From a virus: a stretch of DNA of 64,000 nt. Below the pieces are notes generated by a model, which was not told the origin of the DNA, did not search any database, and saw nothing but the letters and a program-made list of their open reading frames with translations. How positions within the stretch are numbered: position 1 is the stretch's first letter; each line of letters begins with the position of its first letter. This document shows, piece after piece, positions 3,460 through 4,178 of this stretch. The translations under genes and the position numbers were made by a program. The stretch is from the IMG/VR virus record IMGVR_UViG_3300047557_002560, positions 1 to 64,000 of that record; one strand, 5' to 3'.

Positions 3460-3854
3460 GGGGATAACCGGTATCGATCCGGATGTAGAGGTAATACTAC
3501 ATGCAGGCATTTGAGTATACTGCCTTAGAAGATACTAAACAATAAATGACGAAATGTCAGAAATGACCTACGATGACCTTATGGCTTTCGTAGGCGCCGA
3601 CTACGCTCTTGCAGCCTAGTTCGCATCGGGCGGTAGAGAGCCTAGGAACAGAACACAACAGCGAGTCATACGCTAAAGAGATGGCATCCGGACGCATATT
3701 GCGAGCCGTAGTTTTCTTGATAGTCATAAAATCAAGTGGTGGATCCGACCACAACAGGTCAGCCCTTACGGTGCAGCGCAAGCAGTACTAAGCATGTGAG
3801 ACGTTAGTATTATTGTCTCTTTCGGAGACGTGGGTTCGAATCCCACTATCTCCA
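3460..3854 (+). ncRNA. ssrA: Phage-encoded transfer-messenger RNA (tmRNA)
   Basis: The ends fold into an alanine-type acceptor stem: GGGGATA (3460-3466) pairs with TATCTCC (3847-3853), including the G3-U wobble that identifies alanyl acceptors. The discriminator base is A3854. A T-arm follows the tRNA rule (GTGGG, TTCGAAT, CCCAC at 3830-3845). The CTAAGCATGTGAGACGTTAG block before it matches the conserved tmRNA 3' domain. An internal reading frame ending in YALAA-stop gives the proteolysis tag. tmRNA rescues stalled ribosomes and tags incomplete proteins for proteases. The CCA end is not encoded. Reading frames across this segment are not genes. Confidence 0.93.
3596..3619 (+). other. tmRNA tag reading frame (ADYALAA)
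   Basis: GCC GAC TAC GCT CTT GCA GCC TAG encodes ADYALAA. The resume codon is chosen because the four bases before it (AGGC, A at 3592) match the AGTC that precedes the E. coli resume codon. With the tRNA-borne alanine the tag would be 8 residues, compared with 11 in E. coli. The C-terminal ALAA recognised by ClpXP-type proteases is kept. Confidence 0.75.
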
Positions 3855-3869
3855 CTAAATACAAAAATG

Positions 3870-4150
3870 TGGCCGAATAAATCCTTGAGAGGGATTAAGG
3901 CACTGACAAGGTAGCTGAAAAGTTACTGAGTTGGGTATCACAGACGGATGAGTTAAAACCACCATCACACAGGGTAGAATGTACAACCCGAAGGTGCTCT
4001 GGGTACGCCGAAGTTGAATACAACTGATCTCTGCAGGCGTTGCTGGTAATTAATCCAGCTAGTCTTAACACTAGAACTGATCATTTTAGTGGACTATGGG
4101 TGAAAAGGGGTCCGTCCTAGGATTATGGGTGATCAGTACTCCCATCAATT
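3870..4150 (+). ncRNA. Unassigned structured RNA downstream of tmRNA
   Basis: About 280 nt with no credible reading frame and much higher GC than neighbouring genes. Visible local hairpins include AATCC/GGATT near 3879-3896, GTAGCT-GAAA-AGTTAC near 3911-3926, CTGG/CCAG near 4045-4060, GGAC/GTCC around the AAAAGGGG motif (4092-4114), and ATGGG/CCCAT near 4125-4145. It contains GGTGAAAAGGGGT, a 13-mer also found in the D-arm position of the tRNA-like RNA at 4961. It ends at a perfect hairpin. I cannot match it to RNase P, group I introns or a known riboswitch. Exact ends are unknown. Confidence 0.55.
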
Positions 4151-4154
4151 TTAA

Positions 4155-4178
4155 GGGTGACCATTTCGGTGGTCACCC
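4155..4178 (+). terminator. Strong hairpin ending the RNA island's first part
   Basis: GGGTGACCA (4155-4163) pairs perfectly with TGGTCACCC (4170-4178) across a 6-nt TTTCGG loop. The downstream tract is A/T-rich rather than a pure T run, so it may be a terminator or an RNA-processing or stabilising hairpin. Confidence 0.6.

Follow-up and report, generated by a model that had tools for sequence, protein, structure and literature searches.

It is highly probable (roughly 85%), judging from sequence comparison, that the phage genome analysed here carries a complete tmRNA with a 23-codon tag, which would work with host factors; a role of its conserved extension as a second recognition segment is a more tentative step. 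The window, i.e., the whole 64,000-base stretch of DNA that was analysed, covers positions 1–64,000 of an IMG/VR virus record of 68,692 bases (68.7 kb), which is incomplete. A large group of phages steadily uses tags of 22–28 codons, and their extra part is selected as protein, suggesting functions of the tag beyond the ALAA end; the reason why phages carry tmRNA thereby becomes directly testable.

The tmRNA gene and its resume codon

The preliminary description of this DNA had recognized a tmRNA with an alanine acceptor containing a G-U wobble, a T-arm and a 3' domain, and this identification was borne out by the sequence, by ARAGORN, which places a one-piece tmRNA at 3460–3855, and by the Rfam tmRNA model that had been named as a check. 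RF00023 matches with 61.8 bits, above its gathering score of 47 (E 1e-21), over model positions 1–374, its full length. The gene comprises the following features:

3460–3857, + strand: tmRNA gene (ssrA), one-piece (RF00023 and ARAGORN)
3460–3466, + strand: 5' strand of the acceptor stem, GGGGATA, pairing with 3847–3853 (sequence)
3505–3536, + strand: pseudoknot 1 (PK1), stem 1 3505–3509/3521–3525, stem 2 3514–3518/3532–3536 (covariation)
3537–3547, + strand: resume element of 11 nt, AAACAATAAAT, with U at -5 and A at -4 (E. coli comparison)
3548–3592, + strand: tag extension, codons 1–15, DEMSEMTYDDLMAFV (pN/pS)
3593–3616, + strand: C-terminal part of the tag, GADYALAA, with ADYALAA starting at 3596 (conserved end)
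3617–3619, + strand: tag stop codon TAG (sequence, ARAGORN)
3830–3846, + strand: T-arm, GTGGG-TTCGAAT-CCCAC (sequence and RF00023 alignment)
3847–3854, + strand: 3' strand of the acceptor stem and discriminator A3854 (sequence)

In the acceptor helix (3460–3466/3847–3853), G3 stands opposite T3851, forming the G.U pair of alanine identity, and 3460–3466 and 3830–3854, including the T-arm, make up an alanine-type tRNA-like domain. The encoded 3' end is A-CTA, and CCA would therefore need to be added after processing. Within the full-length RF00023 alignment, the part with pseudoknots 2–4 has low posterior values and aligns poorly to the Rfam model, and this region varies between close relatives. 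When two other loci (L001/L023) are compared with window positions 3620–3785, PK1 and tag are identical between the two tmRNAs while the pseudoknot 2–4 region differs strongly, which suggests that this module is exchanged between tmRNAs.

The stems of PK1 are AGGCA/TGCCT and AGTAT/ATACT, the last position being 3536. With 11 distinct relatives compared, pairing holds in 98.2% of cells, 6 of the 10 pairs have changed on both sides, and covariation scores 0.633, as against at most 0.291 with partners slid. PK1 is followed by 11 nt, AAACAAUAAAU, in which U-5 and A-4 are present; the E. coli resume element, AAAAAAUAGUC, shares this length and both of these residues. An 11-nt resume element has been described in which A86 is nearly fully conserved and its mutation to a pyrimidine abolishes activity (PMC2481249). 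A simple pseudoknot finder also gave a PK1 spacing of 11 nt in E. coli and in the long-tag family, with the best-scoring pairing extending into the spacer for some relatives. The window shows the order expected of a tmRNA, in which PK1 and the resume codon are separated by about 11 nt carrying U-5 and A-4: PK1 ends at 3536, the 11-nt element with both residues follows, and this identifies GAC 3548 as the resume codon of a 23-codon tag. From GAC 3548 the frame is open to the stop, ending in GCC GAC TAC GCT CTT GCA GCC TAG, so that the predicted tag is A+DEMSEMTYDDLMAFVGADYALAA, 24 residues long. ARAGORN likewise reads DEMSEMTYDDLMAFVGADYALAA in the window. The nonpolar degron and stop (ALAA-TAG) close a frame with coding selection, and the terminal ALAA is kept, as had been stated before.

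Directly 3' of the tmRNA, at 3863–4158 (+), lies a conserved non-coding RNA of about 295 nt, with 73 predicted pairs, of which 34 show changes on both sides, and a covariation of 0.334 compared with at most 0.099 with partners slid. It is without an Rfam match. The family comprises 30 viral stretches, of which one third lie near a tmRNA; other members lie beside tRNAs or have a promoter-like TTCTTTGACAT upstream, and the 735-kb phage LR756501 contains a partial match. This is possibly a new structured phage RNA.

Long tags across phages and selection on the extension

A search for phage tmRNAs that was blind to the tag, finding loci through the 3' tRNA-like domain only (114 stretches), gave tags of 22–28 codons in at least 49 of the 80 loci listed, near-identical contigs being counted separately. 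Tags were called as 8–14 codons in 16 further loci, some clearly proteobacterial (ANDDNYALAA) and some uncertain, and about 15 gave no tag length, mostly because they are cut by contig ends. The long tags fall into class A (DEMSTMTFDDLMAFVGADYALAA, AEELSSFTFEDAMSFVGADYAVAA), class B (DNTTVELSEYTIDSLLAELSGTELELA), class C (DKTQSSRVAEGEAILASIFGEVAIAA) and class D (AETKSRQEIGASIINMAFANAPVALAA); judged by eye alone, A seems related to B and C to D. Two huge-phage genomes contain further tmRNA candidates with tag frames that were likewise read by eye: about 36 codons, GVNNADYESAGFTAEDFAQMDGESLYHGSERKPAAV, in LR756508 (484 kb; L151:1501-1944), and about 33 codons, GDYKMNAEDMMSIPTSLTGKVATESFVEDLVLA, in LR756501 (L155:1501-1844), the latter with a weak Rfam match of 21 bits.

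IMG/VR relatives of the window were collected by a pattern search on PK1 plus the resume element and by a tag-alignment search; the latter matched 213 stretches, and the 80 that were read each have 23–24 codons. Nearly all relatives have a tag ending in ALAA or AVAA. One close relative, on a 174-kb contig (L055), keeps the extension and ends in GADEATFA instead of GADYALAA, a natural degron variant. Over 42 unique tag frames, pN/pS was 0.19 for all codons and 0.18 for the 15-codon extension, whose other two reading frames gave 1.38 and 2.62. This set had been gathered by peptide similarity, and selection was re-measured on tag-blind sets with fewer sequences. There, the class A extension gave 0.29 in frame vs. 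1.57 and 1.77 (12 unique sequences), classes B and C gave weaker ratios (0.45 and 0.46 in frame vs. 0.8–2.4 otherwise), and the C-terminal end of the tag gave 0.08. The 15-codon extension evolves as protein.

The extension region does belong to a structured RNA, and its extra codons could matter as RNA only, through helix 5 or spacing, instead of as peptide. Substitutions there are predominantly synonymous, and this holds for the tag frame alone (pN/pS 0.18–0.46 vs. 0.8–2.6), and similar length and an open frame recur across tag classes of unrelated nucleotide sequence; we dropped this explanation on the pN/pS values as very improbable.

The same selection bears on where the tag starts. The preliminary description had let it begin at GCC 3596, so that it would have 8 residues (A+ADYALAA) and lack the adaptor-binding part. 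It had the frame and the stop right, ADYALAA being the last 7 of the 23 codons, and UA.. context does lie upstream of GCC 3596; the start was wrong, as that codon lies 59 nt past PK1 instead of 11 and the frame is open to GAC 3548, from which it gives 24 residues. A resume codon elsewhere, giving a tag of normal length, had been foreseen as the counter-case: the codon indeed sits elsewhere, but the tag is longer, about twice the usual length, which contradicts a shortening with loss of the adaptor-binding part. ARAGORN reported ADYALAA in two relatives (L137 and L140) in which the 23-codon frame is nonetheless intact; these are miscalls and hence no evidence for a short tag, and in the window ARAGORN itself reads 23 codons. 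With the 15 codons upstream of GADYALAA under purifying protein selection and the PK1 spacing against it, resumption at GCC 3596 is scarcely credible, and we dropped it. Across five loci (L137, L140, L458, L459, and L469), ARAGORN gave the tags ADYALAA, ANEYALAA and ADYAVAA although a longer frame is intact. Automatic tag-length annotation of phage tmRNAs may therefore be wrong in places, and caution is due, since automated calls can truncate long tags.

The Bacteroidota chromosomes sampled carry short tags, the added peptide of the likely hosts having 10–11 residues, less than half the roughly 24 of the phage tag. A tmRNA match was found in 141 of 148 Bacteroidota genomes, and 67 of 70 sampled tmRNAs could be typed, including four miscalled or missed tags that were re-read; all 67 have 9–10 codons (e.g., GENNYALAA, DNNYSYRLAA, ANDYSYAMAA, and GNTQYAMAA). 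A peptide pattern for the class A tag, to which this result is limited, gave 14 matches and no confirmed case among 84,980 species genomes, and a chromosomal source of the long tag was dropped on this ground. Neither tblastn nor blastn found the long tag in cultured phages. Although phages integrate at tmRNA genes and prophages can contain fragments of ssrA (PMC9004378), a captured host tmRNA decaying without function is the least credible reading of all, given a complete gene with a covarying PK1, protein-level selection on the tag, its occurrence in many phages and the lack of a confirmed class A tag in the chromosomes searched.

Host, partner proteins and the possible role of the extension

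The best cultured relative by protein is Flavobacterium phage immuto (44% across the entire baseplate wedge protein, 46% for the PD-(D/E)XK nuclease), in which the genes surrounding the nuclease and glycosyltransferases are similarly ordered and no tmRNA match was found; Microcystis phage Mel-JY01 is second. By reading, genes near the tmRNA are without obvious Shine-Dalgarno sequences. The relatedness to immuto and this lack of Shine-Dalgarno sequences make a Bacteroidota host likely, and the source is probably a large tailed phage.

A phage-encoded SmpB or SspB partner was sought and none was found. SmpB (PF01668) was not detected in 15 phage records, several of them longer than 150 kb, so the host SmpB is presumably used. 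SspB (PF04386) was found neither in eight phage records nor in five Bacteroidota genomes; this, and the retained ALAA/AVAA degron, speak against the proposal in the preliminary description that the tag avoids adaptor-dependent proteolysis. ClpP (PF00574) occurs in three of nine phage records and in a Bacteroides control genome, and is absent from the window contig. In many of these phages, the long-tag tmRNA is preceded, about 4 kb upstream, by a ClpP-like protease (L449-L477; L072:763-1305). Of 29 phage ClpP loci, 27 continue downstream for at least 6 kb, and in 22 of these a long-tag tmRNA follows on the same strand, with class A and class D tags both at a similar place. In PHROGs, phage ClpP also matches head-maturation protease families. 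This neighbourhood is shared synteny of related phages and no proof of cooperation.

The tRNA-like domain, the covarying PK1, the resume context and the conservation across many phages make the earlier suggestion of a role in ribosome rescue probable. The phage tmRNA would be charged by the host alanyl-tRNA synthetase, and SmpB and EF-Tu of the host would deliver it to ribosomes that have stalled on broken mRNA. Translation would resume at GAC 3548, A-DEMSEMTYDDLMAFVGADYALAA would be appended, and release would occur at UAG. The ALAA/AVAA end would still be readable by ClpXP-type proteases, while the 15-residue extension might offer a second recognition or engagement segment, for a protease such as Lon or ClpXP or for an adaptor, so that tagged chains in infected cells are cleared efficiently or in a phage-specific way. 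For the extension we tentatively prefer this role as an extra protease or adaptor segment; a Lon-type degron by itself and a handle of non-proteolytic purpose both rank below it. An amphipathic helix is unsupported, the helical amphipathicity of the extension being not above that of shuffles. More speculatively, an extended tag specific to phages, with several interchangeable classes, could have arisen in the phages of Bacteroidota and would re-address unfinished proteins to a protease or adaptor of the phage's choosing, possibly including the phage ClpP about 4 kb upstream.

By analogy with Mollicutes, the extension could instead be a Lon-type internal degron allowing clearance without ClpXP. 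The layout is alike, with a polar start, a hydrophobic middle and a small nonpolar end, and Lon reads the long Mesoplasma tag (PMC9382460, PMC8138137). We think this rather unlikely, as the ClpX-type ALAA/AVAA end is retained and the Bacteroides control genome has ClpP, so that ClpXP is probably available. We give equally little credence to a handle for a non-proteolytic purpose, such as phage factor binding, localisation or counter-defence: that there are several distinct tag classes, alike in length and found even at one and the same syntenic position, might reflect diversification towards different partners, but the C-terminal degron is conserved in most.

Comparison with known tmRNAs and tags

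The phage gene shares with bacterial one-piece tmRNA (RF00023; Flavobacterium ssrA, tag GENNYALAA) the tRNA-like domain, PK1, the 11-nt resume element and the YALAA-type end; it differs from Flavobacterium ssrA in being phage-encoded and in having 23 tag codons instead of 9–10. Phage tmRNAs are known from mycobacteriophages Bxz1 and Wildcat and Bacillus phage G (PMC4131195), huge phages carry tmRNA (PMC7162821), and ssrA is also phage-borne in Melnitz (PMC9004378), where it is two-piece, unlike the one-piece gene here. The accessible parts of these three accounts contain no description of a long-tag family. In the available portion of the report on a 2025 database of 97,179 tmRNA sequences, which includes RefSeq viruses, 10 is the most frequent tag length and long phage tags are not mentioned (PMC11915505). 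The long phage tag may thus be undescribed as far as the open-access literature searched goes, with an earlier description possible. An mRNA-like region can reach 126 nt, as in a plastid (PMC1168896).

Long tags are known in Mollicutes, where the mf-ssrA tag of Mesoplasma florum is read by Lon (PMC9382460, PMC8138137). Like the phage tag, mf-ssrA is longer than usual and has a hydrophobic middle. It ends in NYAFA, in bacteria without ClpXP, whereas the phage tag ends in ALAA or AVAA; instead of the Mollicutes combination of an AFA end replacing ALAA and hosts lacking ClpXP, we found an ALAA end and ClpP in the Bacteroides control genome.
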